Below are positions 36,673-51,805 of a stretch of 64,000 bases of DNA, in pieces. This stretch comes from an uncultured Clostridia bacterium (lineage in GTDB: Bacteria; Bacillota; Clostridia; Oscillospirales; Ruminococcaceae): the NCBI GenBank assembly GCA_947589215.1, contig CANQCL010000002.1, positions 62,001-126,000 on the forward strand. Reading direction: 5' to 3'. The notes beneath the pieces are model-generated. The model ran no database searches. It saw nothing but the letters and a program-made list of their open reading frames with translations, and was not told the origin of the DNA. The position numbers and the translations under genes were made by a program. Position 1 is the stretch's first letter. Each line of letters begins with the position of its first letter.

Positions 36673-39282
36673 GTGAAATTAGCCGATATTGATGTGTCGA
36701 AGCTATCTCCTATGATGCAAAAATATGTAGAAATCAAAAAGAATTATAAAAATCACATTGTTTTTTATAGGCTGGGTGATTTTTATGAAATGTTTTTTGA
36801 TGACGCTATTGTTGTGTCTCGTGAGCTTGAACTTACCTTGACCGGTCGTGACTGCGGCTTGGAGGAGCGGGCTCCGATGTGCGGAGTTCCTCACCATGCC
36901 TGCGAAACATACATAAAAAGGCTTATTGATAAGGGATTTATGGTTGCTATTTGTGAGCAAACAGAGGATCCTTCTCAGGCAAAGGGACTTGTTAAAAGAG
37001 AAATTGTAAGAGTTGTAACTCCCGGAACGCTTATTGAAAGCAGTATGCTTGATGAAACGCAGAACAACTATATATGCTCGATTTATTATAATGACAGTGA
37101 AATATCGCTCTGTCTTACCGATATTTCAACAGGCGAAGTGCATCTTTATCTGTTCACAGACAGAAATGCAGTTTCTGACGCTGTAAACGAGCTTTCAAGG
37201 TTTGAGCCTGTTGAGGTGTTAATGAACGACAACGTGCTGAAACTTAAAGAGGTAACGTCTTTTATAAAAGAGAAGCTTAAAGCAAGCGTTTCAATTCTCG
37301 ACGACAAGGATTTTGATATTTCAGCTAACAGAGAGGTTGTATGCGAGCAGTTTTCTGTAACTGATTTATCTAAGCTTTCTGTCAATGTTGATAGCATTGA
37401 AGCAAATGCTGTTAGCGGTTTGTTTAAATACATATACGACACTCAAAAGGCTTTAATAGGCAGATTTACCAATATCATAAGACACGAAAACGATCCTTTG
37501 ATGATATTAGGTCTAACGGCAAGAAGGAACTTAGAGCTTACCGAAACCTTGAGAAACAAAGAAAAGAAAGGCTCACTGCTTTGGGTACTTGATAAAAATA
37601 AGACATCTATGGGCAAAAGGCTTTTAAAGACGTTTATTGACCAGCCTTTGACTAATCCTGCAAAAATAATTCAAAGGCTTGACGCTGTTGAACAGCTTGT
37701 AAAAAATCCTGTTGTTCTAGGTGATTTAAGCGAGGATCTAGCAGGTGTTTATGACATTGAGCGTCTTATGACAAGGGTAATGTATAAAACTGCAACTCCC
37801 AGAGATTTAAAAGCATTGTCTGCAACAGCCGAAAGGCTCCCTGAAATAAAAAGGCTTTTGTCAAACTTTTCTGCTAAACTTTTGGTTTCGGAAAATGAAA
37901 AAATTTCTACCTTAGAGGATATTGCAAATCTGATTGAAAACTCTATAGTTGACGAGCCTCCTGTAAACACTAAAGACGGCGGAGTTATAAAAGATGGCTT
38001 TAACAAAAATTTGGACGAGCTTCGCAATATAATTCACGGCGGAAAAAGCATTATTGAAAATATAGCCGAAAAGGAACGGGAAAGAACGGGAATCAAAACC
38101 TTGAAAATCGGTTATAACCGTGTGTTTGGATATTATATTGAAGTAACTAAATCAAACATTGATCTAGTTCCTGAAAGCTATATCAGAAAGCAGACTCTTA
38201 CAAACTGCGAAAGATACATAACTGAAGAACTTAAAGACGCTGAAAATACCATACTCGGCGCAAACGATAAAGTCATCTCATTAGAGCAGGAAATTTTTAT
38301 TGAGGTTAGAGATTATATTGCCAAACAGCTTACAGTTGTTCAGGAAACTGCATCTGCCATTGCATTAATTGACGTTTTAGCGTCTTTCGCAACAGTTGCT
38401 ACGGCAAACAACTATTCTAAGCCGGAGATTGCCATTGACGGCGTCATAGATATTAAAAATGGCAGACATCCTGTTGTCGAATTGATGCAAAAGGACGAGA
38501 TGTTTGTTCCGAATGACGCTTATTTAGACTTGACGGAAAACAAAATGAGTATAATTACAGGTCCGAATATGTCGGGTAAATCCACTTATATGAGGCAGAT
38601 AGCGCTTATTACTCTTATGGCTCAGATAGGCTCTTTCGTGCCTGCTGATTATGCCAAAATCTCAGTTGTAGATCAAATTTTCACAAGAGTAGGCGCATCT
38701 GATGACCTAACTTCAGGTCAGTCGACGTTTATGGTCGAGATGAGCGAGGTTGCTGAGATCGTTAAAAATGCAACGCAGAACAGCCTTGTTATTTTAGACG
38801 AGGTCGGCAGGGGAACATCGACCTTTGACGGTATAAGCATTGCAAGAAGCGTTGCGGAGTTTATTTCCGGTTCTAAAAAGTTGGGCTGTAAAACCCTGTT
38901 TGCAACCCATTACCACGAGCTTATTGAACTTGAAAATGAGTTAAGCGGTGTAAAGAATTACAGCGTTGCGGTTAAGCGAACTGCTCAGGGAATTAAGTTT
39001 CTGAGAAAAATAGTAAGAGGCGGAGTAGACGAAAGCTATGGAATTGAAGTTGCAAAACTAGCAGGGCTTCCTGCTAAGATAATAAACCGTGCCAATGAAC
39101 TTTTGAAAGGATTTGAAGAAGAAAGCAACAATACAAAGGTATCAGTGCAAGGTGATATGCAGATTGGTATGGACGATATTAATGAAAAAATTGTAATAGA
39201 AAAGCTAAGAAAAACAAACATTGATGAAATGAATGACGAGGAACTAAGGTTCTACATAAAGGATATTTTGAAATATATTTAG
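36673..39282 (+). CDS. mutS: DNA mismatch repair protein MutS
   Basis: 869 residues, full length. The mismatch-sensing motif GDFYEMF gives Phe37 and Glu39. The connector, lever and clamp domains follow, then the ATPase with Walker A GPNMSGKST (630-638), LVILDEVGRGTSTFDG and the FATHYHEL segment. It starts with GTG 36673. It binds mispairs and recruits MutL, encoded 20 nt downstream. Confidence 0.97.
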   Translation: MKLADIDVSKLSPMMQKYVEIKKNYKNHIVFYRLGDFYEMFFDDAIVVSRELELTLTGRDCGLEERAPMCGVPHHACETYIKRLIDKGFMVAICEQTEDPSQAKGLVKREIVRVVTPGTLIESSMLDETQNNYICSIYYNDSEISLCLTDISTGEVHLYLFTDRNAVSDAVNELSRFEPVEVLMNDNVLKLKEVTSFIKEKLKASVSILDDKDFDISANREVVCEQFSVTDLSKLSVNVDSIEANAVSGLFKYIYDTQKALIGRFTNIIRHENDPLMILGLTARRNLELTETLRNKEKKGSLLWVLDKNKTSMGKRLLKTFIDQPLTNPAKIIQRLDAVEQLVKNPVVLGDLSEDLAGVYDIERLMTRVMYKTATPRDLKALSATAERLPEIKRLLSNFSAKLLVSENEKISTLEDIANLIENSIVDEPPVNTKDGGVIKDGFNKNLDELRNIIHGGKSIIENIAEKERERTGIKTLKIGYNRVFGYYIEVTKSNIDLVPESYIRKQTLTNCERYITEELKDAENTILGANDKVISLEQEIFIEVRDYIAKQLTVVQETASAIALIDVLASFATVATANNYSKPEIAIDGVIDIKNGRHPVVELMQKDEMFVPNDAYLDLTENKMSIITGPNMSGKSTYMRQIALITLMAQIGSFVPADYAKISVVDQIFTRVGASDDLTSGQSTFMVEMSEVAEIVKNATQNSLVILDEVGRGTSTFDGISIARSVAEFISGSKKLGCKTLFATHYHELIELENELSGVKNYSVAVKRTAQGIKFLRKIVRGGVDESYGIEVAKLAGLPAKIINRANELLKGFEEESNNTKVSVQGDMQIGMDDINEKIVIEKLRKTNIDEMNDEELRFYIKDILKYI

Positions 39283-39302
39283 CGAACGGAGCGTACCATA
39301 AT

Positions 39303-41249
39303 ATGCCAAAGATTAACGTATTGACAAAGGAAGTTGCCGAGCTGATAGCGGCAGGCGAGGTAATTGAACGTCCATCGTCTGTTATAAAGGAGCTTTTGGA
39401 AAATTCAATAGATTCGGGTGCCAATGTTATAACCGTCGAGATAAAAAACGGCGGTCGTACATATATGAGGGTCACTGATAACGGCTGCGGAATCAATCCT
39501 GAGGATATTCCTACTGCTTTTTTGCGGCACGCCACAAGTAAAATAACGTCAAAAAGCGATTTAGATAAAATTCTTACTCTTGGATTTCGAGGAGAGGCTC
39601 TGGCGTCTATTTGCGCTGTGTCAAAAACAGAGGTTCTTTCAAAGGTTATAGATCAAGAATACGGAACGCATTATGTAATTGAAGGCTCAGAGGAAAGGGT
39701 CAATGAAAGATCCGGCTGTCCTAACGGTACGACTATAGTTATTAGAGATATATTTTATAATGTTCCAGCAAGGCTTAAATTTCTTAAAAAGGATGTTACC
39801 GAAGGAAACGCTGTTTCTGCTGTAGTTTCAAAGCTTGCATTATCTCACCCTGAGATATCCTTTAAGCTTATTCGGGATAATAAGACAGAGCTTGTAACAG
39901 CAGGAGACAGAAAACTCTTTTCTGCAATATATTCGGTGTTCGGAAAGAGCTTTGCAAGCTCCCTTATTCCTGTAGATTACTCTTATAACGGGATAACCGT
40001 AAATGGGTATACTGTAAAGCCTCTTGAGGCAAAGGCTAAAAGAACCTTTCAGAATTTTTTTATTAACAATAGATATGTGAAATCAGTAACTTGTATGGTT
40101 TCGCTTGAGGAGGCATATAAAAATCAAATTATGACAGGGAAATTTCCTGCCTGCGTACTGTGTTTGAATATACCTCCCAATCTTGTTGATGTCAATGTGC
40201 ATCCTGCGAAAATTGAGGTAAAGTTTTCAAACGAGAAAATGGTATATGAAAGCGTCTATTTTGCTGTCAAGAACGCACTTCTTCAAGATGCTTCTCCTAA
40301 GGAGCTTGAGCTTGAGAATAAAAAGCATTTTACAAACAGTGAACTTCATCAGCTTATGAATACCAACAGCGGAGTTCAGACAACACTGAACTCTAAGCGG
40401 GAATTGGCTGACGGCGTTAATAAAACAGATAAATTTACCATAAAAACATATTCAAAGCCCGAAGAAGAATTTTATTGTGTTGAAGCGCCTAAGGCTGAAT
40501 ATTCCACTGAAACAGATACTTATAATAAAGATAACGACATTTCTAAACTTAAACCTGAAGAACCAAGAGATTTAGACGATTTTAAGTTTTTAGATAGTTC
40601 TTCCTTTGTTAAGAAAGAGCCTAAATCAGAGACTGTTGTTACTGATAATTCAGATAATGAGGATAACGAGTTTTCAAAATCAAAGCCATTAGTTATCGGC
40701 GAGATTTTTAACACTTATATTATTGTTGAAAAGGATAGTGATATGTACCTTTTTGACAAGCACGCCGCACATGAGAGATATATATTTGAAAAAATCAAAA
40801 GCGAAGCAGATAAACTCGATTCGCAGATGCTTTTTGAGCCGGCGGACGTTTTGCTGTCATATGATGAATATGATGCAATAATATCAAATATTGAGACTGC
40901 AAGACAGTTTGGATTTATTTTAGAAGATGCCAATGCTCCTAGTATTAAAGTATTGGGCGTTCCGGTGGTTATTGAGGATACAGACCCTTCAGATATAATT
41001 TCAGAGCTTGCGCATAATTTCTTAGAGCATAAACAGAATCCTAATTTATCGCTTTTTGACGAGCTTTACCACTCTATAGCCTGCAAAGCTGCAATAAAGG
41101 GTAATATAAAATCAGATAAAATAGAGCTTCAAAGTCTAATTGATAAGATATTTGGCGATGAAAATATTAGATACTGTCCTCACGGCAGACCTGTGTTTAC
41201 AAAAATCTCAAAAAGGGAAATCGAAAAGCAGTTCAAACGCATTGTGTAA
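39303..41249 (+). CDS. mutL: DNA mismatch repair protein MutL (endonuclease-competent)
   Basis: 648 residues. The GHKL ATPase domain (1-~330) shows VIKELLENSIDSGA, DNGCGI and GFRGEALASI. An acidic linker (~340-460) leads to the C-terminal dimerisation domain. That domain keeps the nuclease motif DKHAAHERYIFE (485-496, form DxHA-x2-E-x4-E) and the CPHGRP motif, so it should nick DNA itself, as expected where MutH is absent. Confidence 0.97.
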   Translation: MPKINVLTKEVAELIAAGEVIERPSSVIKELLENSIDSGANVITVEIKNGGRTYMRVTDNGCGINPEDIPTAFLRHATSKITSKSDLDKILTLGFRGEALASICAVSKTEVLSKVIDQEYGTHYVIEGSEERVNERSGCPNGTTIVIRDIFYNVPARLKFLKKDVTEGNAVSAVVSKLALSHPEISFKLIRDNKTELVTAGDRKLFSAIYSVFGKSFASSLIPVDYSYNGITVNGYTVKPLEAKAKRTFQNFFINNRYVKSVTCMVSLEEAYKNQIMTGKFPACVLCLNIPPNLVDVNVHPAKIEVKFSNEKMVYESVYFAVKNALLQDASPKELELENKKHFTNSELHQLMNTNSGVQTTLNSKRELADGVNKTDKFTIKTYSKPEEEFYCVEAPKAEYSTETDTYNKDNDISKLKPEEPRDLDDFKFLDSSSFVKKEPKSETVVTDNSDNEDNEFSKSKPLVIGEIFNTYIIVEKDSDMYLFDKHAAHERYIFEKIKSEADKLDSQMLFEPADVLLSYDEYDAIISNIETARQFGFILEDANAPSIKVLGVPVVIEDTDPSDIISELAHNFLEHKQNPNLSLFDELYHSIACKAAIKGNIKSDKIELQSLIDKIFGDENIRYCPHGRPVFTKISKREIEKQFKRIV

Positions 41250-41276
41250 CATCAGCTTAATTAAGGAGAGTTTTAA

Positions 41277-42218
41277 TTGGCAAAGCAACCTATTATCGTA
41301 GTCGTCGGACCGACTGCCACAGGTAAAACTGCATTAGCTGTTGAATTGGCAAAGCTATATAACGGTGAAGTTATTTCTGCCGACTCTATGCAAATTTATA
41401 AGGGTATGGATATACTTACCGCAAAGCCGACTGAAGTAGAGAAACAGGGTATAAGACATCATCTTATGGACTTTTTAGAGCCTGAGACCGATTTCAGCGT
41501 TGCCGACTATGTAAAGCTTGCAAACATAGCAGTTGATGATATATCAAGCAGAGGAAAGCTTCCTGTGCTTGCTGGAGGAACTGGGCTTTATATAAACTCG
41601 CTTATTGACAATATAAAATTTGATGATACAACAGGTGATAAAGAATATCGTGAAAGACTTTTATCTGTTGCTAAGGAGAAAGGAAACCATTATCTTTGGC
41701 AAAGGCTTTTAGATGTTGATGAGAAGTCTGCGTTGGCTGTTCACGAAAACAATGTTTCGAGAGTTATAAGGGCACTGGAGGTCTATGAAAAAACAGGGGA
41801 GAAATTATCTGAGTACAAAAAATCCAGTCGTCTTGAGGAGTCGAGATTTGTGCCTGCAATGATAGGTTTGACATTCTCAGACAGGCAATTGCTTTATGAC
41901 AGAATAAATGAAAGAGTAGATACTATGATTGCAGACGGTTTAGTCAACGAGGCAAAAGGTATTTATTGTAGCAGAAATCTTAATACTGCACATCAGGCGA
42001 TCGGATATAAGGAGCTTATTCCTTATTTTGAAGGACAAGCTTCGCTTGAGGACTGTATAGAAAAAATTAAGATGGAAACAAGGCGTTACGCAAAGCGCCA
42101 GCTTACTTGGTTTAGGCGAGATAAAAGAATTAACTGGATTGAAGTAGATAAATATAAAAATATTGAAGAAATTTCAGAAAAAGTAAAAAAATATATAGCC
42201 ATTTGTATAAAAATGTGA
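41277..42218 (+). CDS. miaA: tRNA dimethylallyltransferase
   Basis: A 313-residue enzyme adding dimethylallyl to A37 of UNN-reading tRNAs. The P-loop is GPTATGKT (11-18), ISADSMQIYKGMDI contains the catalytic Asp, and LAGGTGLYI and AIGYKEL are also diagnostic. It starts with TTG 41277, 8 nt after AAGGAGAG. It makes the substrate for MiaB, encoded at the front of the block. Confidence 0.96.
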   Translation: MAKQPIIVVVGPTATGKTALAVELAKLYNGEVISADSMQIYKGMDILTAKPTEVEKQGIRHHLMDFLEPETDFSVADYVKLANIAVDDISSRGKLPVLAGGTGLYINSLIDNIKFDDTTGDKEYRERLLSVAKEKGNHYLWQRLLDVDEKSALAVHENNVSRVIRALEVYEKTGEKLSEYKKSSRLEESRFVPAMIGLTFSDRQLLYDRINERVDTMIADGLVNEAKGIYCSRNLNTAHQAIGYKELIPYFEGQASLEDCIEKIKMETRRYAKRQLTWFRRDKRINWIEVDKYKNIEEISEKVKKYIAICIKM

Positions 42219-42224
42219 TATAAT
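42196..42224 (+). promoter_or_regulatory. Possible hfq promoter at the miaA 3' end
   Basis: TAGCCA (42196-42201), a 17-nt spacer and TATAAT (42219-42224). The -10 is perfect, the -35 weak. It would give a ~90-nt leader before hfq. Confidence 0.35.
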
Positions 42225-42317
42225 ATTAATATATTTTATCAGTAATTAGTAATTTCATATTACTTTGCTTTAAAATTCAACAGAATTTTAAGTTCTTAAA
42301 AGAAAGGAAGATATAAT

Positions 42318-42554
42318 ATGAACAAAGCAATGAATTTACAGGACGTATTTTTAAATCAGGCAAGAAAAGAGAAAGTTCCTGTAACAATCTTTTTAGTGAA
42401 CGGATTTCAGTTTAAGGGATTAGTTCACGGCTTTGACAGCTACATTGTCATTTTAGAGTGCGACGGAAAACAGAATGTAGTTTATAAGCATGCAATTTCA
42501 ACAATTGTTCCTTCAAAAACAATTAATCTGCTTGATTCTAATAGTGACAATTAA
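42318..42554 (+). CDS. hfq: RNA chaperone Hfq
   Basis: A 78-residue Sm-fold hexamer subunit that binds small RNAs and A-rich RNA. Sm1 is [19 protein letters not shown]-like and Sm2 is [12 protein letters not shown]. The N-terminal [12 protein letters not shown] is typical. The miaA-hfq order is widely conserved. The AGAAAGGAAG site lies 8 nt before ATG. Confidence 0.96.
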
Positions 42555-42590
42555 ATTTAGTTTGTTTATTTATTTGAGGTTGTTATCAAA

Positions 42591-43823
42591 ATGAATTCAA
42601 TTACAGTTAAAGTTTTAGGCATTGCTTTATCTGTTTTTATATTGATTATGGTCGGAAGTCAGATAGCTTATAAGATACAGGATTCTCACGATACTGAAGA
42701 AGCCGTACTTTATACAGTTAATGAGAATATAACTTTTAAAGGAATGTTTCTTCGTGATGAGCGGGTTGTGAAGTACAACAACACAATCGACGGTGTTATT
42801 AATTATCTGTATGACGACGGTTTGAAGGTTTCTGAGAACTCGGCTATTGCCAAGGTTTATAGTAATCAAGACCAAATTTATTACAGAAACAGATTGTCAA
42901 GGCTGAAAAAGGTTTTATCTGATTTAAAAAGAGCTCAGAGTCCGGGTACGACAAATTATGTTCAGGCTGAAACTTTGAGGAGTAAAATAGAAGATTATTA
43001 TACGAATTTGTCAAATATGATTCAGCAGAAAAAATACTCCTCTGTTAGTTCTTATAGCGATGATTTGCTTTATACTATGAACATATATAATATTGTAACC
43101 GGCAGCAGCGAAAATTTTAAACCTGCAATAAATCTGATAAAAGCTGAAATTAATGAACTTAAAACTAAAATAGAGAATCCGCTTAGCAGTATAAAAGCAA
43201 ATGAGGCCGGTTACTTTGTGAAGTCTGTTGACGGATATGAGTCGTCGGTATCATATGATGATTTAGAAAATATGTCAACAGACGAACTGCAAAAGTTGTT
43301 TGATATAAAACCTGAGATTACCGAAAATGCAGTAGGAAAGCTTTTAAAAAGCTATGAATGGAAGTTTCTCGGAATAATTAAAAACACTAATAAATTTTTG
43401 ATTAATGACGGATTGTCAATAAGATTTAATTCTTCCAATAAGGTTTACGGCGTTACGGTTGACAGTATAAAGCCAATTGACGGCACTGATACCAGTATTG
43501 TAATTCTTAGCTGTAATGAGCTTGACGAGACTGTGCTGAATAACAGATTTGACAATGCTGAACTGATATTCGATGAATATACCGGAATAAAAATTCCGAG
43601 AGAGGCTATCAGGTTTCAAGGCGAGCAGAAAGGCGTTTATGTAACGCTAGGGCAGGAGATTACTTTCAAAAAAGTTGATGTTATATACGAAGGCGATGAC
43701 TTTGTGCTGTCAAAGAATACCTCAGATGACAGTTATCTGCTTTTGTATGACAAAATTCTTTTAGAGGGGGTAAGCGCAGATGAAGTCTCAAGAACAGCAA
43801 ATTACTCAGAAGATTCAGGATAA
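42591..43823 (+). CDS. HlyD-like membrane-anchored adaptor of unknown role
   Basis: A 410-residue protein with one N-terminal membrane segment (~7-25) and an extracellular remainder. The first beta-rich part (~45-85, GVINYLYDDGLKVSENSAIAKV-like) resembles a lipoyl/barrel-sandwich half. A helical hairpin follows (~90-200), then a second beta part (~200-370, with KIPREAIRFQGEQKGVYV near its end) as in HlyD/MacA-type adaptors. No transporter gene is nearby. Its last 44 nt overlap yggS, tying it to the sepF-divIVA operon. A link to envelope or division is inferred from position only. Confidence 0.75.
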   Translation: MNSITVKVLGIALSVFILIMVGSQIAYKIQDSHDTEEAVLYTVNENITFKGMFLRDERVVKYNNTIDGVINYLYDDGLKVSENSAIAKVYSNQDQIYYRNRLSRLKKVLSDLKRAQSPGTTNYVQAETLRSKIEDYYTNLSNMIQQKKYSSVSSYSDDLLYTMNIYNIVTGSSENFKPAINLIKAEINELKTKIENPLSSIKANEAGYFVKSVDGYESSVSYDDLENMSTDELQKLFDIKPEITENAVGKLLKSYEWKFLGIIKNTNKFLINDGLSIRFNSSNKVYGVTVDSIKPIDGTDTSIVILSCNELDETVLNNRFDNAELIFDEYTGIKIPREAIRFQGEQKGVYVTLGQEITFKKVDVIYEGDDFVLSKNTSDDSYLLLYDKILLEGVSADEVSRTANYSEDSG

Positions 43824-44514
43824 AAAATTTGAATATCTTATTGAAAACTATAAAGAAATATGTTATAATATTAAAGATAGTAAGTCTAAATACAGAAAAC
43901 ACGACGATAATGTGCGAATAATGGCTGTTACCAAGACTGTTGAGCCTGAGTTTATCAACTTTGCCATTGAGCAGGGAATTGATTTACTCGGTGAAAACAG
44001 AGTACAGGAGTTTCTTTCAAAGAAGGATTCATACAAACCGTGCGAGGTACAGTTTATAGGGCATTTACAGACAAATAAAGTTAAGTACATTATCAATGAT
44101 GTTTCTCAGATTCAATCGGTTGACAGTTTTAAGCTGGCTGCTGAAATTGATAGACAAGCTAAGAAAAATGATAAAACTATGGATATTCTTATTGAAGTTA
44201 ATATCGGTGATGAGTTATCAAAAAGCGGAATTTCAAGGTCAGGCGTTTTAGAGCTTGCAAAAAGGATTTCGGAGCTTGAGAACGTAAGAATAAACGGTTT
44301 GATGGCTATTCCTCCGATAAATGCTGACGATAGTATCTACGGCAGTTTGCAGGAGCTTTATCATGAAATAGGACAAAAGAAGCTAAATCATATCAATATG
44401 AATGTGTTATCAGTTGGTATGTCAGGAGATTACGTCAAAGCCGTCCAATACGGTTCTAATCTCGTGAGAATAGGAACAAAGCTCTTTGGAGCGAGAAAAT
44501 ATTTGGAGGTATAA
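43780..44514 (+). CDS. YggS-family PLP-binding protein (PLP homeostasis)
   Basis: 244 residues, alanine-racemase-like TIM barrel without the racemase C-terminal domain. The PLP lysine is Lys52 in IMAVTKTVEP. LIGENRVQEF-like and FIGHLQTNKVK motifs and SVGMSGDYVKAVQYGSNLVRIG are diagnostic. It keeps PLP levels in balance in other bacteria. The YlmE equivalent of Bacillus sits in this same ylmEFGH-divIVA block. The start ATG overlaps the preceding gene by 44 nt and has GAGGGGG upstream. Confidence 0.93.
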   Translation: MKSQEQQITQKIQDKKFEYLIENYKEICYNIKDSKSKYRKHDDNVRIMAVTKTVEPEFINFAIEQGIDLLGENRVQEFLSKKDSYKPCEVQFIGHLQTNKVKYIINDVSQIQSVDSFKLAAEIDRQAKKNDKTMDILIEVNIGDELSKSGISRSGVLELAKRISELENVRINGLMAIPPINADDSIYGSLQELYHEIGQKKLNHINMNVLSVGMSGDYVKAVQYGSNLVRIGTKLFGARKYLEV

Positions 44515-44517
44515 ACA

Positions 44518-44943
44518 ATGAGTGTTATGCAAAGCTTTAGAAATCTTTTCATCGGCAGCGATGAAACGGCTGACGATTATGAGTCGATTTACGAGAAAGA
44601 ACAGCAAATGACGGCAGATGAAATTAGAGACAGAAGAAACAGAGAAGTAAAAATCGCTGCGACAACAACTTTACAGATTGTTTTGGCAAGACCTACAGAT
44701 TTTTCTGAGGTTAAAGCAATCGGAGACGATCTCAACGACCAGAAAACCGTTCTGCTTAACCTTGAAACAGTAAGAAGCGAGGATGCAAAAAGAATTCTTG
44801 ACTTTTTATCGGGCGTTGCATATGCAAACGGCGCCGATATCAAGATGATGGCTCAGAAAACCTTTGCAATAATGCCTAAGAATGTAGGTTTCTCCGGCGT
44901 TGACTTGATGAGTGAGCTGGAAAACAACGGATACAGCTTTTAA
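44518..44943 (+). CDS. sepF: Cell division protein SepF
   Basis: A 141-residue FtsZ-binding protein. The N-terminal amphipathic stretch MSVMQSFRNLFIG is the membrane anchor. After an acidic linker, the folded domain (~50-141) has RPTDFSEVKAIGDDL and RILDFLSGVAYANGADIK, the typical SepF core that tethers and aligns FtsZ filaments. Its stop codon overlaps the ylmH start (TAATG). Confidence 0.96.
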   Translation: MSVMQSFRNLFIGSDETADDYESIYEKEQQMTADEIRDRRNREVKIAATTTLQIVLARPTDFSEVKAIGDDLNDQKTVLLNLETVRSEDAKRILDFLSGVAYANGADIKMMAQKTFAIMPKNVGFSGVDLMSELENNGYSF

Positions 44944-45728
44944 TGAAAGAGTTTAACAGCTCTTTTTTGAAGAATTTGTCAAAGCAGGATCACTTGCTTG
45001 TTGAAAGAATAATTGACTGGACTAATATTGCAAATGAAAAATATACTGAGAAGTTTTCTTTCTTCTTAGATTGTCGCCAGTCAAAAATCGCAAAGCAGGT
45101 ACTTGATTCACTTAAATTTGATAACTATAAATTTTTTGGCGGATATGATGACGCTCATAGACTTGTTCTAGGCGTATTTCCGACTTATACACATATTAAT
45201 AATATTGATTTTCCTGTCAAAGGAATAACCTTTACATATAGAAAATGTGATATTTTGACGCATCGTGACGTGCTTGGAAGCTTAATGTCATTAAAGGTTG
45301 CAAGAGAATGTATAGGAGATATAATTATCAGCGAAGGAAAGACAATTGTTTTTGTTGTTGACAAAATATTACCTTTAATTCTTGAAAACGTACATAAAAT
45401 CGGTAAAATAGGTGTTAAGACTGAAATCGGATTTGATTTATCAGATGTTGCCTTAGAGCAAAAGTTTTCCGATATATGCGGTACTGTGCAATCCTTAAGA
45501 GCCGACAGCGTTGTTGCGTTAGCGATAAGCAAGAGCAGGGAAAAGGCTTCAAGTTTAATCAAAACCAGCGGAGTTGTTATTGATTACGAAGAAATTTTTT
45601 CTCCAAGCTATGAAATGTGTGAAGGCGTTGACTTTTCCATTCGCGGATACGGAAAATTTTTGCTGAGTTCCATTGACGGACTGTCAAGGAAAAATCGTTT
45701 ACACATAACGGTTAAAAAATATGATTAA
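44943..45728 (+). CDS. ylmH: YlmH-type S4-domain RNA-binding protein
   Basis: 261 residues. The N-terminal half is the YlmH-specific domain, containing GGYDDAHRLVLGVFP. The C-terminal S4 domain is ~180-255 (LRADSVVALAISKSREKASSLIKTSGVVIDYE). YlmH-type proteins bind ribosomes or RNA; Bacillus YlmH acts in ribosome quality control. Overlap with sepF indicates coupling. Confidence 0.92.
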   Translation: MKEFNSSFLKNLSKQDHLLVERIIDWTNIANEKYTEKFSFFLDCRQSKIAKQVLDSLKFDNYKFFGGYDDAHRLVLGVFPTYTHINNIDFPVKGITFTYRKCDILTHRDVLGSLMSLKVARECIGDIIISEGKTIVFVVDKILPLILENVHKIGKIGVKTEIGFDLSDVALEQKFSDICGTVQSLRADSVVALAISKSREKASSLIKTSGVVIDYEEIFSPSYEMCEGVDFSIRGYGKFLLSSIDGLSRKNRLHITVKKYD

Positions 45729-45749
45729 TATATCTTAGGAGGCAATAGT

Positions 45750-46490
45750 ATGATCAATCCAAACGATATAGCTGAAAAGACCTTTGAAAAGGCTACATTT
45801 GGTTACAAGTCTGAAGATGTAGATGAGTATCTACTTGCTCTTTCAAAAGCTTTTGCTGATGTAGTTTCTCAGAATCAGGAGAGCGAGGCTAAAATCATCA
45901 AGCTTGTTGAAAAAATCAACGAGTACAGAAACGATGAGGACGCTATCAAAGAAGCACTGCTTGGCGCTCAGAAGCAAGGTCATAAGATTATTGCGGAAGC
46001 TAAAGCTGAAGCTGAGGCTATACTTAACAAGGCTCGTGAAGAACAAGAAATCGTTTCGCGACAAAGTGCTGAGGAATGTGACAGGATTGTTCGTGAGCAC
46101 AAGGCTAAGTGTGAAACTCTTATTAGAGAGAATACTGAAAAAACCGAATACAGGATCAAGTCATCTAAGATCCAGAGCGAGCAGGAGGCTGAAAACCTTG
46201 CTAAGCTTAAGGTTGAGGTTACAAGATTCAAGGCGCAGCTTACAGAGCTATATAATAAGCAGTTGAAGCTTATTATGGAGCTTCCTGAAATTTCAGAGGA
46301 TGAGGTTGAGCAAATTATTGCTGAGAAAGAAGCACGCGAAAAGAAGCTTGAAGAGAGCAAGGCTATCATCGACAAGGCTCAGGAGATCGCCGCTCATAAC
46401 AGCGTGCAGGATAACTTTCATTATGAGGGAAACAAATATACTCCCGATGAAGGTCATTACGGTGATTTGAAATTTGGAAAAAATAACTGA
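45750..46490 (+). CDS. divIVA: DivIVA-domain cell division/polarity protein
   Basis: A 246-residue largely coiled-coil protein. The N-terminal DivIVA domain (1-~60) reads NPNDIAEKTFEKATFGYKSEDVDEYL and carries the membrane-binding region. Long Ala/Glu/Lys-rich coiled coils fill ~55-215. It would recognise curved membrane at septum and poles. Last in the sepF-ylmH set, directly before ileS, as in many Firmicutes. Confidence 0.92.
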   Translation: MINPNDIAEKTFEKATFGYKSEDVDEYLLALSKAFADVVSQNQESEAKIIKLVEKINEYRNDEDAIKEALLGAQKQGHKIIAEAKAEAEAILNKAREEQEIVSRQSAEECDRIVREHKAKCETLIRENTEKTEYRIKSSKIQSEQEAENLAKLKVEVTRFKAQLTELYNKQLKLIMELPEISEDEVEQIIAEKEAREKKLEESKAIIDKAQEIAAHNSVQDNFHYEGNKYTPDEGHYGDLKFGKNN

Positions 46491-46512
46491 TTATTAAGGA
46501 GACTTTTTGTAA

Positions 46513-49308
46513 ATGCCACAGGACTATAACGCTTCATTGAATTTACCTAAGACAGAATTTCCTATGAGGGGAAACCTTCCTAAGAGAGAGCCGGAGATGC
46601 TCAAAAAATGGGATGAAGAAAATCTTTATGATGATATAATCAAGAGAAACGAGGGAAAGCCGAATTATACTTTGCATGACGGACCTCCATACGCTAACGG
46701 TGATATCCATCTCGGAACTGCTTTAAACAAGGTTTTGAAGGATATAATCGTTAAGTATAAGAATATGAGCGGTTTTCGCTCTCATTATGTACCCGGTTGG
46801 GATACGCACGGTCTGCCTATTGAGCTAAAGGCAATGAAATCAATAGGAGTTGAAAACGGTGCAATACCCCCAGTCGAGCTTAGACAGCACTGTAAGGATT
46901 TTGCTCTGTCATTTGTGGAAAATCAAAAGGAGCAGTTTAAACGTCTTGGTGTTTTAGGCGATTTTGATAATCCTTACTTAACATTAAAGCCTGCGTTTGA
47001 GGCAAGAGAAGTTGAGGTTTTTGGCGAGTTTGCTAAAAAAGGTTATGTATATAAGGGCTTAAAGCCTGTTTATTGGTGTCCTGAGTGTCAGACTGCTTTG
47101 GCAGAGGCTGAAATTGAGTATTCAGATGACCCGTGCCAGTCGATTTATGTTAAGTTTAAAGTATCTGACGACAAGGGACTTTTTACCGAAAAGGGAATAG
47201 ACATAAATAAAACATACTTCGTTATTTGGACAACTACCACTTGGACGCTTCCGGGCAACTTGGCTATTTGTCTTGGTCCTAATTATGACTATGCTGTTGT
47301 TAGGGCTGAAAACGGCGAAAATTATGTTATGGCTGAATACCTCATTCCTGTAACTATGCAGGTTGCGGGAATAGAAAAGTTTGAGATTATCGCTAAATTT
47401 TTGGGCAGCGATCTTGAGGGTATCAAGACCGAGCATCCGTTTATGAACAGACCTTCGCCTGTTATTCTCGGCGACCACGTTACTTTAGAAAGCGGTACGG
47501 GCTGTGTTCACACGGCTCCGGGCTACGGTGTTGACGACTTTGAAGTATGTAAAAAATATGATGATATAGGTATAGTTGTCGGCGTTGACGGCAAGGGAGT
47601 TTTAACTAAGGATTCCGGAATGTTTGAGGGACTGACAACTGACAAGGCAAACAAGGTGATTGCCGAGCATTTAAAAGAAACGGGCGCTTTGTTCGCTATT
47701 GAGGAAATTGAGCACCAGTACCCTCATTGCTGGAGATGCAAGTCGCCTATTCTGTTTAGAGCAACCGAGCAGTGGTTCTGTTCTGTTAAGAACTTTAAAG
47801 ACGAAACAGTAAAGGCAATCGAAAAAGTTGATTGGATTCCTAAATGGGGCGAGGAAAGAATCAAAGGAATGGTTCAGGACCGTTCTGACTGGTGCATTTC
47901 CAGACAAAGAACATGGGGTGTTCCGATACCTGTTGTTTATTGTAAAGACTGCGGAAAGCCTATCTGCAATGATGAAACTATTAAAGCAATTTCCGATTTA
48001 TTCAGGGCAGAGGGTTCAGACGCTTGGTATAAAAAGGACGCTAAGGATTTCATTCCTGAAAGCGTAAAATGTGAGTGCGGATGTTCGGATTTTGAGAAAG
48101 AGATGGACATACTCGACGTTTGGTTTGACAGCGGAGTTACTCACAAAGCTGTTTTAGAGGAAAGAGAAGACTTAAACGCTCCAGCTGATTTATATCTCGA
48201 GGGTGCTGACCAATACAGAGGCTGGTTTCAATCGTCCTTGCTTACGTCAATCGTCTGCAATGGAGAGGCTCCTTACAAGGCTGTTTGCACTCACGGTTGG
48301 GTCGTTGACGGTCAGGGAAAAACTATGCACAAGTCTCTCGGAAACGGCATTGAGCCGTCTGAAATTACAAATAAATACGGTTCTGATATTCTAAGGCTTT
48401 GGGTAGCGTCGTCTGATTATCATTCTGATATCAGAATCTCAGATGATATTTTGGCACAGCTATCAGAAGCATATAAGAAAATAAGAAACACAGCAAGATT
48501 TATATTGGGCAATTTATCAAATGCTGACGGTTTTGATATCGACAAGGACGGCGTTTCAGATAATGAGTTATTTGAACTTGATAAATGGGCATTAGCAAAG
48601 CTTGACGAGCTTATTGACAAGGTAAACGCTGCGTACACTGCATTTGATTATCATATTGTTTTCCACGCAATACACAACTTCTGTGTTATTGATATGTCGA
48701 ACTTCTATCTTGACATTATTAAAGACAGATTGTATTGTGATGATGTTGATTCAGTTTCAAGAAGGGCTGCTCAGACAGCTATGTATAAAATTCTGAGCGC
48801 TGTTACAAGACTTATCGCACCTATTATGTCGTTTACAGCTGATGAGATATGGGGTTATATACCTCACTCGTCAAGTGATAATGCGAAGAGCGTTTTCTTA
48901 AATGATATGCCTGAAAAATCTGGTATAAAAATTGATAATGAATTCACAGCAAAGTGGGATTTGATTGCCGAACTCAGAGAAGACGTTAAGAAAGCTCTTG
49001 AAATAAAGAGAGCAGACAAGGTTATAGGCAAGTCATTAGAAGCAGATGTAATCTTGTATGCCGATGAAGATAAGAGAGAAGCTATTTCTAAGTTTGTAAA
49101 CGAACTGCCCGAAATTTTTATTGTCTCAAAGGTTGAGCTTAAAGACGGTGAAGGTGAATTCAAGGGCGAACTTGACGGTGTAACAGTTGATGTTATAAAG
49201 GCAACGGGGGAAAAGTGCGAAAGATGTTGGAAATTCTCAGAGTCTGTTGGCACTCATAATGACCACCCGACACTTTGCGACAGATGTCACAGCGTTATTA
49301 CAAAATAA
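46513..49308 (+). CDS. ileS: Isoleucyl-tRNA synthetase
   Basis: 931 residues, class Ia. HIGH is HLGT (66-69) in DGPPYANGDIHLGTA. The CP1 editing domain includes GTGCVHTAPGYGVDDF. KMSKS appears as MHKSLGNG around residue 604. A C-terminal zinc finger (CERCW and CDRCH, ~905-928) marks the bacterial type. No T-box is present directly upstream: only 22 nt separate it from divIVA, so any tRNA control would have to sit elsewhere. Confidence 0.97.
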   Translation: MPQDYNASLNLPKTEFPMRGNLPKREPEMLKKWDEENLYDDIIKRNEGKPNYTLHDGPPYANGDIHLGTALNKVLKDIIVKYKNMSGFRSHYVPGWDTHGLPIELKAMKSIGVENGAIPPVELRQHCKDFALSFVENQKEQFKRLGVLGDFDNPYLTLKPAFEAREVEVFGEFAKKGYVYKGLKPVYWCPECQTALAEAEIEYSDDPCQSIYVKFKVSDDKGLFTEKGIDINKTYFVIWTTTTWTLPGNLAICLGPNYDYAVVRAENGENYVMAEYLIPVTMQVAGIEKFEIIAKFLGSDLEGIKTEHPFMNRPSPVILGDHVTLESGTGCVHTAPGYGVDDFEVCKKYDDIGIVVGVDGKGVLTKDSGMFEGLTTDKANKVIAEHLKETGALFAIEEIEHQYPHCWRCKSPILFRATEQWFCSVKNFKDETVKAIEKVDWIPKWGEERIKGMVQDRSDWCISRQRTWGVPIPVVYCKDCGKPICNDETIKAISDLFRAEGSDAWYKKDAKDFIPESVKCECGCSDFEKEMDILDVWFDSGVTHKAVLEEREDLNAPADLYLEGADQYRGWFQSSLLTSIVCNGEAPYKAVCTHGWVVDGQGKTMHKSLGNGIEPSEITNKYGSDILRLWVASSDYHSDIRISDDILAQLSEAYKKIRNTARFILGNLSNADGFDIDKDGVSDNELFELDKWALAKLDELIDKVNAAYTAFDYHIVFHAIHNFCVIDMSNFYLDIIKDRLYCDDVDSVSRRAAQTAMYKILSAVTRLIAPIMSFTADEIWGYIPHSSSDNAKSVFLNDMPEKSGIKIDNEFTAKWDLIAELREDVKKALEIKRADKVIGKSLEADVILYADEDKREAISKFVNELPEIFIVSKVELKDGEGEFKGELDGVTVDVIKATGEKCERCWKFSESVGTHNDHPTLCDRCHSVITK

Positions 49309-49321
49309 TAATTATTAGCGT

Positions 49322-49354
49322 AAGTTGTCAGATTATTTTGACAACTTATGTTTT
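49322..49354 (+). terminator. Probable terminator after ileS
   Basis: AAGTTGTCA (49322-49330) pairs with TGACAACTT (49339-49347), followed by ATGTTTTG. The stem is good but the T tract is broken. The rest of the gap up to lspA is AT-rich without other clear signals. Confidence 0.55.
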
Positions 49355-49472
49355 GTTCAAAATTATTGAGAAAATATTACTCTTTTAATTCTTTTTACCT
49401 GTTATCCCATAAACTGTTTGCATATTGCTCACTGAGTTTATGCACATTTTGGAGTAAGAAACGGAGATTAAA

Positions 49473-50096
49473 ATGATTTTCATATCGCTTATACTGGTTG
49501 TATTGCTTGTTATAATTGATCAAGCTGTCAAATATTTTGTAATCTCGAATATTGATTTGTACGAAACATTTTATACTTTCAGTATTGGGAAGTATGATTT
49601 GTTTAGTATTACTCACGTCAGAAATAATGGTGCGGCTTGGAGTATAATGGAAGGGAAAACAATATTGCTTACAGCTGTAGCTGTAATAGCAATTATAATA
49701 GTTTTTTTTCTGATTGCGTCCGGTAAGTTTAAGCTGAAGCTTGAAGTAGTTATGCTGTCGTTCATTATGGCAGGCGGAATAGGAAACATAATTGACAGAA
49801 TAAAATATAAAGAGGTAATTGATTATATACAAACAGATTTTATGAATTTTCCTGTGTTTAATTTTGCCGATATATGTGTAGTTGTTGGAGCAATTGGTTT
49901 TTGCATTGCCTATTTAATTGTTGAATCGGTAAATAATCATAAGAAACGCTCTGTTGTTATAGGTGCATTGGGGGATTCCCCTAATGAAGCGGACAATGCT
50001 GATGAGGTAGATATACTTAATGAGCTGTCAAACAGTTCAAATGAAGAATCAACAAGCAGTGTAAAGTCAGAGGATAACAAAAATGAAGAGTCTTAG
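49473..50096 (+). CDS. lspA: Lipoprotein signal peptidase (signal peptidase II) with acidic C-terminal extension
   Basis: 207 residues. Four transmembrane segments fill ~3-158. The catalytic aspartates are Asp108 (GNIIDRI) and Asp133 (FNFADICV); VRNNGAAWSI is the other family motif. It cleaves prolipoproteins at the lipid-modified Cys. About 45 extra residues at the C-terminus are rich in Asp, Glu, Ser and Asn and go beyond the usual ~160-residue length. Overlaps rluD by 14 nt. Confidence 0.95.
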   Translation: MIFISLILVVLLVIIDQAVKYFVISNIDLYETFYTFSIGKYDLFSITHVRNNGAAWSIMEGKTILLTAVAVIAIIIVFFLIASGKFKLKLEVVMLSFIMAGGIGNIIDRIKYKEVIDYIQTDFMNFPVFNFADICVVVGAIGFCIAYLIVESVNNHKKRSVVIGALGDSPNEADNADEVDILNELSNSSNEESTSSVKSEDNKNEES

Positions 50097-50988
50097 GCTT
50101 TATGTTTCAAGTGAAACCGCAGGGCAAAGAATTGATAAATGGTTATCTGAAAATATTGAGGACTTATCACGTTCCTTAGTTCAGAAGCTTTTAAAAGAAA
50201 ACAATATTCTTATAAATTCTAAGGCAGTCAGCAAAAACTATAAGCTTTGTGCTGATGATATTATTGATATAAATATTCCCGAACCGAAGTCTTTAGATAT
50301 TCTGCCTCAAAACATACCTGTTGATATTGTTTTTGAAGATGATGACTTACTGGTTGTAAATAAACCCAAAGGTATGGTTGTCCATCCTGCGGCGGGAAAC
50401 CCAGACGGCACCCTTGTAAACGCTCTTTTATACCACTGTAAAGGACGTCTTTCAAGCATTAACGGCGTTATAAGACCGGGTATTGTGCATAGAATAGATA
50501 AATATACCAGCGGTTTGCTGATAGTTGCCAAAACAGATAAGGCGCATACTCATCTGGCAGAGCAGATCAAAAATCACTCGTTCACTAGAGAATATATGGG
50601 CATAGTCTGCGGTAGAATGAATGATAAAGAGGGTACTGTTGACGCCCCTATCGGCAGACATAAGATAAACAGAAAAAAGATGGCGGTAACTGATACAAAT
50701 TCTAAAAATGCGGTTACTCATTATAAGGTTTTAGAGACATTTGATAAATACTCTTTGTTAAGATTTATTCTTGAAACCGGCAGAACTCATCAGATAAGGG
50801 TTCATATGTCGTATATAGGGCATCCCATTCTGGGCGATGATGTGTACGGCAAGGCTTTTAAGGGGATAGACGGTCAATGCCTGCACGCTAAAAAGATAGG
50901 GTTTGTTCACCCGTCAACAGGGGAGTATATGGAGTTTGACAGCGAACTACCCGAATATTTTGAAAAAATACTGAAAAAGGTAAGATAA
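50083..50988 (+). CDS. RluD-type 23S rRNA pseudouridine synthase
   Basis: 301 residues. The N-terminal S4 domain (~10-70) has RIDKWLSENIEDLSRSLVQK. The catalytic domain contains Asp139 in VHRIDKYTSGLL, the RluA/RluD active-site motif; canonical sequences have RLD. VVNKPKGMVVHPA and GRTHQIRVHM support the family. It likely modifies 23S rRNA. The lspA-rluD pairing is conserved in Firmicutes. Confidence 0.93.
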   Translation: MKSLRLYVSSETAGQRIDKWLSENIEDLSRSLVQKLLKENNILINSKAVSKNYKLCADDIIDINIPEPKSLDILPQNIPVDIVFEDDDLLVVNKPKGMVVHPAAGNPDGTLVNALLYHCKGRLSSINGVIRPGIVHRIDKYTSGLLIVAKTDKAHTHLAEQIKNHSFTREYMGIVCGRMNDKEGTVDAPIGRHKINRKKMAVTDTNSKNAVTHYKVLETFDKYSLLRFILETGRTHQIRVHMSYIGHPILGDDVYGKAFKGIDGQCLHAKKIGFVHPSTGEYMEFDSELPEYFEKILKKVR

Positions 50989-50992
50989 ATAT

Positions 50993-51805
50993 ATGTTTGA
51001 AGATATATCAAAGGTACTGCTGATAACCGATATGGACGGAACCTTTCTGCCTACTGATAAAATACCGTCAAAAGGTAATTTAGAGGCAATCAAGAGGTTT
51101 CAAAACGCAGGCGGTAAATTTACAATAGCCACAGGTCGAGCACATCAAGCTACGTCGCAATACTTTGAATATTTTGAAGTTAATTTTCCTATGATAATGT
51201 TTAACGGCGGAATGATTTATGATATGGAAACTGATAAGTCTATATATGATATTTATACTCCGCCTGTTGCTAAAGAGATTACTATTGATATATTAAATAA
51301 ATTCCCTCATCTAGGCTGTGAGATTTTATCTAAAAAGGTCAATGTTATAAGCAGAAACGAAACTGAGGATAATCATATAAAAATCTGCAAGGTAACGCCT
51401 AATTACACTGATGTTGATAATGTAGAAGATAACTGGTATAAGGTACTTTTTGCAGATACAAAAGAAAATCTGGATATTGTTGAAGAGTATGTCAGTCAGC
51501 GTAAGTTTACGGGCGTTGACTTTGTAAGAAGCGATATAAACTATTTTGAGATTTTGCCACAGGAGAATTCAAAGGGCTCTGCGCTAAGGGCAATGAGAAA
51601 GCTATGCAATATCGAAGATTACACTGTAGTTGCGGTCGGTGACTACAACAACGATATTCAAATGCTTATTGAAGCAGATTTGGGTGTTTGTCCTGCTAAT
51701 GCGGTTGACGCTGTAAAGGACGTTGCCGATTTGGTATTAGAAGAATCTTGTGATGAAAATGCTATCGCAGCAGTGATAGATTATATATTTTCAAAAGTAA
51801 ATTAA
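50993..51805 (+). CDS. HAD-superfamily Cof-type phosphatase
   Basis: 270 residues. Motif I is ITDMDGTFLP (nucleophile Asp13, acid Asp15). The C2 cap lies between ~85 and ~190, GSALRAMRK supplies the motif III Lys region, and VAVGDYNNDIQML is motif IV. The Cof type acts on small sugar phosphates or nucleotides; the substrate is not determinable. It starts 4 nt after the rluD stop. Confidence 0.9.
   Translation: MFEDISKVLLITDMDGTFLPTDKIPSKGNLEAIKRFQNAGGKFTIATGRAHQATSQYFEYFEVNFPMIMFNGGMIYDMETDKSIYDIYTPPVAKEITIDILNKFPHLGCEILSKKVNVISRNETEDNHIKICKVTPNYTDVDNVEDNWYKVLFADTKENLDIVEEYVSQRKFTGVDFVRSDINYFEILPQENSKGSALRAMRKLCNIEDYTVVAVGDYNNDIQMLIEADLGVCPANAVDAVKDVADLVLEESCDENAIAAVIDYIFSKVN

Follow-up and report, generated by a model that had tools for sequence, protein, structure and literature searches.

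The septal machinery of Clostridia, which often lack FtsA, is poorly known. According to a C. difficile study, this organism has no ftsA and sepF is essential; YlxW, YlxX, YlmG, SepF and DivIVA are found at midcell, and three of these, YlmG, YlxW and YlxX, are named as conserved proteins of the septum about whose function little is known (PMC12548448). The synteny of pipY/yggS with sepF is covered by PMC5504682. Here we examine a 64,000-nt stretch (the window) of contig CANQCL010000002.1, from an uncultured Clostridia bacterium with a genome of 1.98 Mb, in which a gene for a protein with the membrane fusion protein fold precedes yggS and sepF. We use MFP as shorthand for this protein, encoded at 42591-43823, and for its relatives. 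The B. subtilis ylm cluster is not known to include an MFP gene, and none of YlmG, YlxW or YlxX of the C. difficile study corresponds to MFP. No paper naming MFP in the context of division was found among the literature searched, most subscription papers lying outside its reach; MFP may have been overlooked since it reads as an export adaptor. We infer that MFP is an ancestral, extracytoplasmic member of the division and cell-wall cluster of Clostridia that would serve as a septal scaffold or spacer and not as an export tunnel, and we regard the chances of this reading as evenly balanced.

The initial annotation had proposed a steady linkage of an adaptor to division genes and suggested a survey of gene order over Clostridia, the contrary outcome being an adaptor found mostly with transporters and absent from other sepF loci. 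That outcome did not occur. MFP adjoins yggS or shortly precedes sepF in 108 of 114 families, and in 119 of 123 class genomes it lies on the same strand as sepF and no more than 2.6 kb upstream of it, the two genes being on different contigs in the other four. The 123 are the class genomes with both places among the matches listed (150 for SepF and 149 for MFP, of 196). The 114 families are represented by 149 loci viewed over wide stretches, 49 from relatives and 100 from class and phylum genomes. For the relatives, 49 of 60 matching genomes were used, leaving out the genome of the window and ten of the same genus; the class and phylum loci were chosen manually among the listed matches, as a rule a single one for each family, with only the best match per genome considered. 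The start of yggS is no more than 250 bp from the stop codon of MFP at 129 loci (39/49 relatives and 90/100 class and phylum genomes), that of sepF within 1.5 kb of MFP at 133 (48/49 and 85/100), and one or the other at 143 (48/49 and 95/100). The exceptions among the families are f61, where MFP lies elsewhere, f6, f108, f164 and f168, where other genes intervene, and f120, where PhoH is next and SepF is missing. This linkage is not a product of chance and is far deeper than a single locus shows. A search of 61 genomes (that of the window and 60 relatives) returned a single MFP match in each of 60, and at E<=0.001 the MFP profile matches 174/196 class genomes and 241/299 phylum genomes, although the weak class matches, in f58 and f48 among other families, may represent different HlyD proteins.

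Across the 149 loci the genes that recur beside MFP have division or housekeeping roles, and no transporter recurs among them. The nearest upstream marker gene is hfq at 31 loci, miaA at 31, rluD at one and none of the markers at 86; the RNA chaperone gene hfq, missing from many loci, is thus a variable neighbour of the division cluster. Upstream of MFP in the 100 class and phylum loci we find pgeF in 22 (immediately so in 16), sigE in 21 and, within the fetched stretch, ftsZ in nine, while ylmG lies downstream in 60 of these loci and in 12 of the 49 order-level loci. Judged by its gene order, locus L224 looks like the oldest arrangement, running ftsZ-spoIIGA-sigE-sigG-ylmC-pgeF-MFP-yggS-ylmG-ylmH-divIVA-ileS with ftsA just outside. 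Overlap of MFP with yggS is common and not universal (61 of 129 loci); five overlaps exceed 100 nt, reaching 346, and are probably the result of overlong maximal open reading frames (ORFs).

The predicted structure of MFP is that of a membrane fusion protein of the HlyD/AcrA type, with lipoyl, beta-barrel and membrane-proximal domains and a helical hairpin. This assignment is made from the domains of an AlphaFold model (mean predicted local distance difference test score, pLDDT, 80.9; predicted template modelling score, pTM, 0.55), in which all four are present in the window protein, and from the ranking of known structures by Foldseek and VIA-align, where AcrA, MexA, MacA, ZneB and BesA all stand high. 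Foldseek gave 68 matches in the PDB at E<=0.001 with AcrA, MexA and MacA on top, the best being AcrA (9tg4; E 5.7e-14). VIA-align gave Z 11.5 for 9a2v (root-mean-square deviation 21.9 over 297 aligned residues) and Z 10.4 for BesA 4kku_B (10.6 over 229), and the large deviations (10-22) probably arise because the domains are set at different angles. At the sequence level MFP matches Pfam HlyD_2 (PF12700) over residues 30-393, nearly its full length (E 4.2e-37, 128 bits, cut-off 25.1), and reaches 44.4 bits against NCBIfam TIGR02828, under the curated cut-off of 154.4 bits; a PDB sequence search with the single protein returned nothing useful. A hydrophobic 19-mer anchor lies near the start of 143/150 family members, and the median net charge of the N-terminus is +4. 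The N-terminus is therefore probably inside the cell, followed by one transmembrane helix and an extracytoplasmic body. With the PF12700 match, the transmembrane helix and the absence of a transporter among the neighbours, the earlier description of a membrane-anchored, adaptor-type protein lacking a transporter partner holds. The cytoplasmic N-terminus of the window protein comprises a few residues. At seven loci from six families (L145, L166, L175, L179, L183, L235 and L236) basic tails of low hydrophobicity, 88-227 residues long, precede the transmembrane helix. Those of L145 and L236, both of family f36, match each other weakly (1.1e-05), which suggests that the tails are coding, though low complexity alone can yield such values. 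Such tails would form a flexible, disordered-looking cytoplasmic arm, unusual in an export adaptor.

The hallmark of the family is a long loop at the place of the gating ring. In pneumococcal Spr0693 the gating ring spans N211-V224, that is 14 residues, according to PMC5768738. The corresponding loop is about 35 residues in the window MFP and 33-60 across the family (150 proteins), and the stretch from E217 to G249 measures 29-56 residues (median 36) in 150/150 aligned proteins, including those with a short hairpin. With the register set by eye, the end of the Spr0693 loop aligns with G249-K250 of MFP, and the preceding GTVVEV resembles GYFVKSV of MFP; also by eye, the loop is about 14 residues in a pump-type adaptor of the same genome. 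The short gating-ring loop typical of transporter adaptors was thus not found in the MFP family. Counted by aligned columns, the conserved residues among the 150 are E57 (141), D214 (142), E217 (140), K or R at 250 (147) and R319 (142); a strict DGYE pattern misses 32/149 sequences. The hairpin is less constant, its region being shorter than 30 residues in 20/150 members, and long and short forms occur together within each of families f64, f129 and f141. On a tree of the 150, which includes the hairpin columns and has many weak branches, hairpin loss needs 12 changes, of which at least four are forced by well-supported branches. That the hairpin can be lost while the loop is always kept suggests selection preserving a ring and not a tunnel, and MFP probably forms a ring or serves as a scaffold, and is not a conduit for export.

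The fold itself, which MFP shares with AcrA, MexA, MacA and BesA and of which the window protein has all four domains, is what one would expect of an adaptor for a transporter encoded elsewhere, such as a MacB-type ABC transporter or FtsEX, with a wall or septum substrate as the exported compound. We consider this unlikely, given the long conserved loop in the gating-ring place of pump adaptors and the lack of a transporter neighbour in the window or a recurrent one among the loci. The only other protein of the genome over the HlyD_2 cut-off has 341 residues and a cysteine-bearing, lipoprotein-like N-terminus, exceeds the RND_mfp cut-off, and is encoded directly before a 995-residue FtsX-type permease (L279:4943-8969, contig C8). 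It looks like an ordinary pump adaptor and is different from MFP, so that both types coexist in this genome and the only permease-paired adaptor found there is another protein; aligning the MFP family with it by hhalign gave no more than a weak match, confined to the beta barrel (32% probability). As for FtsEX, FtsX_ECD is found in 170/196 class genomes, that of the window included, and 9/20 of the listed genomes without MFP are also without FtsX (G064, G066, G097, G145, G160, G164, G166, G186 and G205, mostly small f29 genomes). This weak parallel loss may reflect a partial link between MFP and FtsX. However, ten genomes of f33, f38, f62 and f68 carry MFP at E<=2.1e-48 with no FtsX_ECD match, though a divergent FtsX could escape the search, and family f58 shows the converse, with FtsX present and MFP absent at sepF. 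We therefore rejected MFP as an obligate FtsEX adaptor. A pump partner among ABC-like ORFs near MFP, flagged by pattern in seven loci, was rejected on the one that was read: in L216 the neighbours look accidental, a PstB-like ATPase gene preceding a PhoU-like one beside a PhoB/PhoR-like pair (names by sequence reading). PhoH is no transporter; its gene adjoins MFP in L207 and separates MFP from yggS in L214 and L229.

The position of MFP shortly upstream of sepF in most loci, and the 14 loci in which MFP and sepF stay together without yggS, would suit a dedicated membrane partner of SepF, the more so as SepF may be the sole FtsZ anchor of the window genome, so read since that genome has SepF and no FtsA match. 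Yet this is highly improbable, because MFP persists where SepF does not. Twelve genomes that retain MFP were checked since SepF was unseen or not drawn beside it, and SepF is absent genome-wide in ten of them; moreover, the few cytoplasmic residues of the window protein leave little to meet SepF. A SepF-specific role was accordingly rejected. FtsA passes its cut-off in nine of the ten, and in seven ftsA lies about 15 kb or less from MFP on the same contig, the reverse of the window genome. The ten are phylum-level relatives (G500, G355, G429, G406, G526, G460, G461, G494, G385 and G534), in which yggS, ylmG, ylmH or divIVA is mostly still in place. Going by these ten, FtsA and SepF seem able to replace each other within the phylum. 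Among the class genomes, FtsA exceeds its cut-off in only 45/196. Since MFP persists with either, it is tied to the division cluster and not to one FtsZ anchor. Of the proposed tie to the sepF division operon, the linkage to the cluster therefore stands, and the link to SepF itself, weighed against the ten genomes with MFP and no SepF and set beside the MFP-sepF loci lacking yggS, does not.

At the locus itself the genes run mutS-mutL-miaA-hfq-MFP-yggS-sepF-ylmH-divIVA-ileS-lspA-rluD on the + strand (Table 1). The names from miaA to divIVA come from Pfam and NCBIfam profile matches; mutS, mutL, ileS, lspA and rluD are named by sequence reading. Among the ORFs read between mutS and rluD (window 36673-51805) there is no ABC, RND or MFS transporter gene. 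The 44-nt overlap of MFP with yggS that had been described is exact, and AGAGGGGG is probably a good ribosome-binding site ahead of the yggS ATG. We also observe that sepF and ylmH touch directly at window position 44943, ylmG being absent there. The start of yggS contains a promoter-like site (43841-43869: TTGAAA, a 17-nt spacer and TATAAT preceded by TG; 11/12), from which sepF-ylmH-divIVA could be expressed apart from hfq-MFP. This site may be mere composition, because the region is richer in promoter-like sites than its shuffles (46 against 23.9). Another promoter-like site lies at 42196-42224.

Table 1. Features of the MFP locus and domains of the MFP protein, in window coordinates.
Feature	Position	Strand	Basis
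MFP-fold protein gene, 410 residues	42591..43823	+	ORF call; PF12700 4.2e-37
hfq	42318..42554	+	PF17209 1.6e-33
yggS (ylmE)	43780..44514	+	TIGR00044 155.5 bits, over cut-off
sepF	44518..44943	+	PF04472 2e-23
ylmH (RNA-binding, S4 type), following sepF without an intervening ylmG	44943..45728	+	PF17774 8.6e-13
divIVA	45750..46490	+	PF05103 4.1e-22
MFP/yggS overlap, 44 nt	43780..43823	+	ORF coordinates
AGAGGGGG, likely ribosome-binding site of yggS, within the MFP gene	43763..43770	+	Sequence
N-terminal membrane anchor, residues 3-30	42597..42680	+	Helix in AlphaFold model; hydrophobic 19-mer in relatives
First lipoyl half-motif, residues 68-90	42792..42860	+	Model strands; aligned with Spr0693 (PDB 5xu0)
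Helical hairpin, residues 93-193, one break per arm giving four helices	42867..43169	+	Model
Second lipoyl half-motif, residues 199-210, GYF at 207-209	43185..43220	+	Model, sequence
Long loop DGYE...(G)K, residues 214-248, at the gating-ring loop place; family hallmark	43230..43334	+	Alignments
Beta-barrel domain, residues 249-336	43335..43598	+	Model, Foldseek
Membrane-proximal domain, residues 340-390	43608..43760	+	Model; profile match of 247-397 to BesA 4kks

That the cluster includes housekeeping genes without a division role raises a further explanation, namely that MFP is an envelope protein outside division which, like yggS and ileS, stays in an ancient operon so as to be expressed together with growth genes (mutL-miaA-hfq, gpsA, pgeF, ileS). 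MFP and yggS do occur together without sepF at nine loci not cut by a contig end, the promoter-like site in yggS could drive sepF separately, and ylmD and ylmE are reported to be dispensable in S. venezuelae (PMC5701809). Against this, the upstream housekeeping genes vary by lineage while MFP-yggS-sepF is mostly constant; in Streptomyces coelicolor, division phenotypes are reported for ylmD and ylmE (PMC5943314); and the cluster products YlmG, SepF and DivIVA are among the midcell proteins of C. difficile in the study cited above. We hold the co-expression explanation to be rather doubtful.

We return to MFP as a division protein. Like other membrane fusion proteins, it would use its lipoyl and beta-barrel domains to assemble into rings or arcs, and the long loop would fill the lumen of the ring. 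So built, it would act as a scaffold or spacer organising wall enzymes at the septum, with the yggS overlap keeping its dose in step with the operon. A function in the septum or wall is plausible from the sequence data, and MFP is a good candidate for the machinery building the dividing wall. The fuller proposal is that, in Clostridia-type bacteria, a whole branch of the fold abandoned transport and now forms a ring or spacer at the septum, its lumen plugged by the conserved loop, whichever FtsZ anchor (SepF or FtsA) is in use; this is possible and we offer it tentatively.

Several points weigh against a septal role. Gene order can persist for causes besides shared function, and the ring with its plugged lumen rests on alignment. 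The N-terminus of the window protein is too short for much contact inside the cell, and FtsX and MFP show the weak parallel loss, in small f29 genomes, described above. In the C. difficile red fluorescent protein (RFP) screen CDR_2504 did not localise, the identity of CDR_2504 not being established (PMC12548448). Moreover, 20 sepF-bearing genomes were viewed at sepF, 19 without a listed MFP and G111 with MFP elsewhere; in ten an MFP, divergent or cut, does precede yggS/sepF, and ten have none there, so that division can proceed without MFP in some lineages. Six of these ten MFP-less loci belong to family f58 (L270-L274 and L277), where the place of MFP before yggS-sepF is taken by ftsW/spoVE-like, ftsQ-like, YlxW-like, small-membrane and DUF881 ORFs. 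The names are by sequence reading except for DUF881 (the last ORF, PF05949), and only L270 was fully read. This f58 gene group joins two division clusters.

If MFP does work at the septum, it would open a new way to study how gut anaerobes build their septa, and would be a case of the membrane fusion protein fold working without a pump. Of one set of 22 loci, 18 entered the alignment (A4), leaving out L238, L239 and L242 as near-copies and L258 as an incomplete match.

How does MFP compare with what has been described? Among the closest known families, TIGR02828 ('putative membrane fusion protein') matches five tested members of the MFP family at 44 to 118 bits, all under 154.4, and neither it nor HlyD_2 (PF12700) carries a statement on function or gene neighbourhood in the search outputs. 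The DUF881 proteins YlxW/YlxX, encoded with ftsQ, occupy the place of MFP in f58 and are likewise single-span and probably extracytoplasmic, in a family unrelated to MFP. The adaptors MacA, AcrA and MexA, Spr0693 (5xu0) and BesA (4kks) share with MFP the lipoyl, beta-barrel and membrane-proximal domains and the hairpin. BesA is not known to have a long hairpin, and in this it resembles the short members of the MFP family. In contrast to these adaptors, MFP has no partner transporter at its locus, carries a loop of about 35 residues where Spr0693 has 14, has lost the hairpin in 20/150 members, and is encoded in a division cluster.

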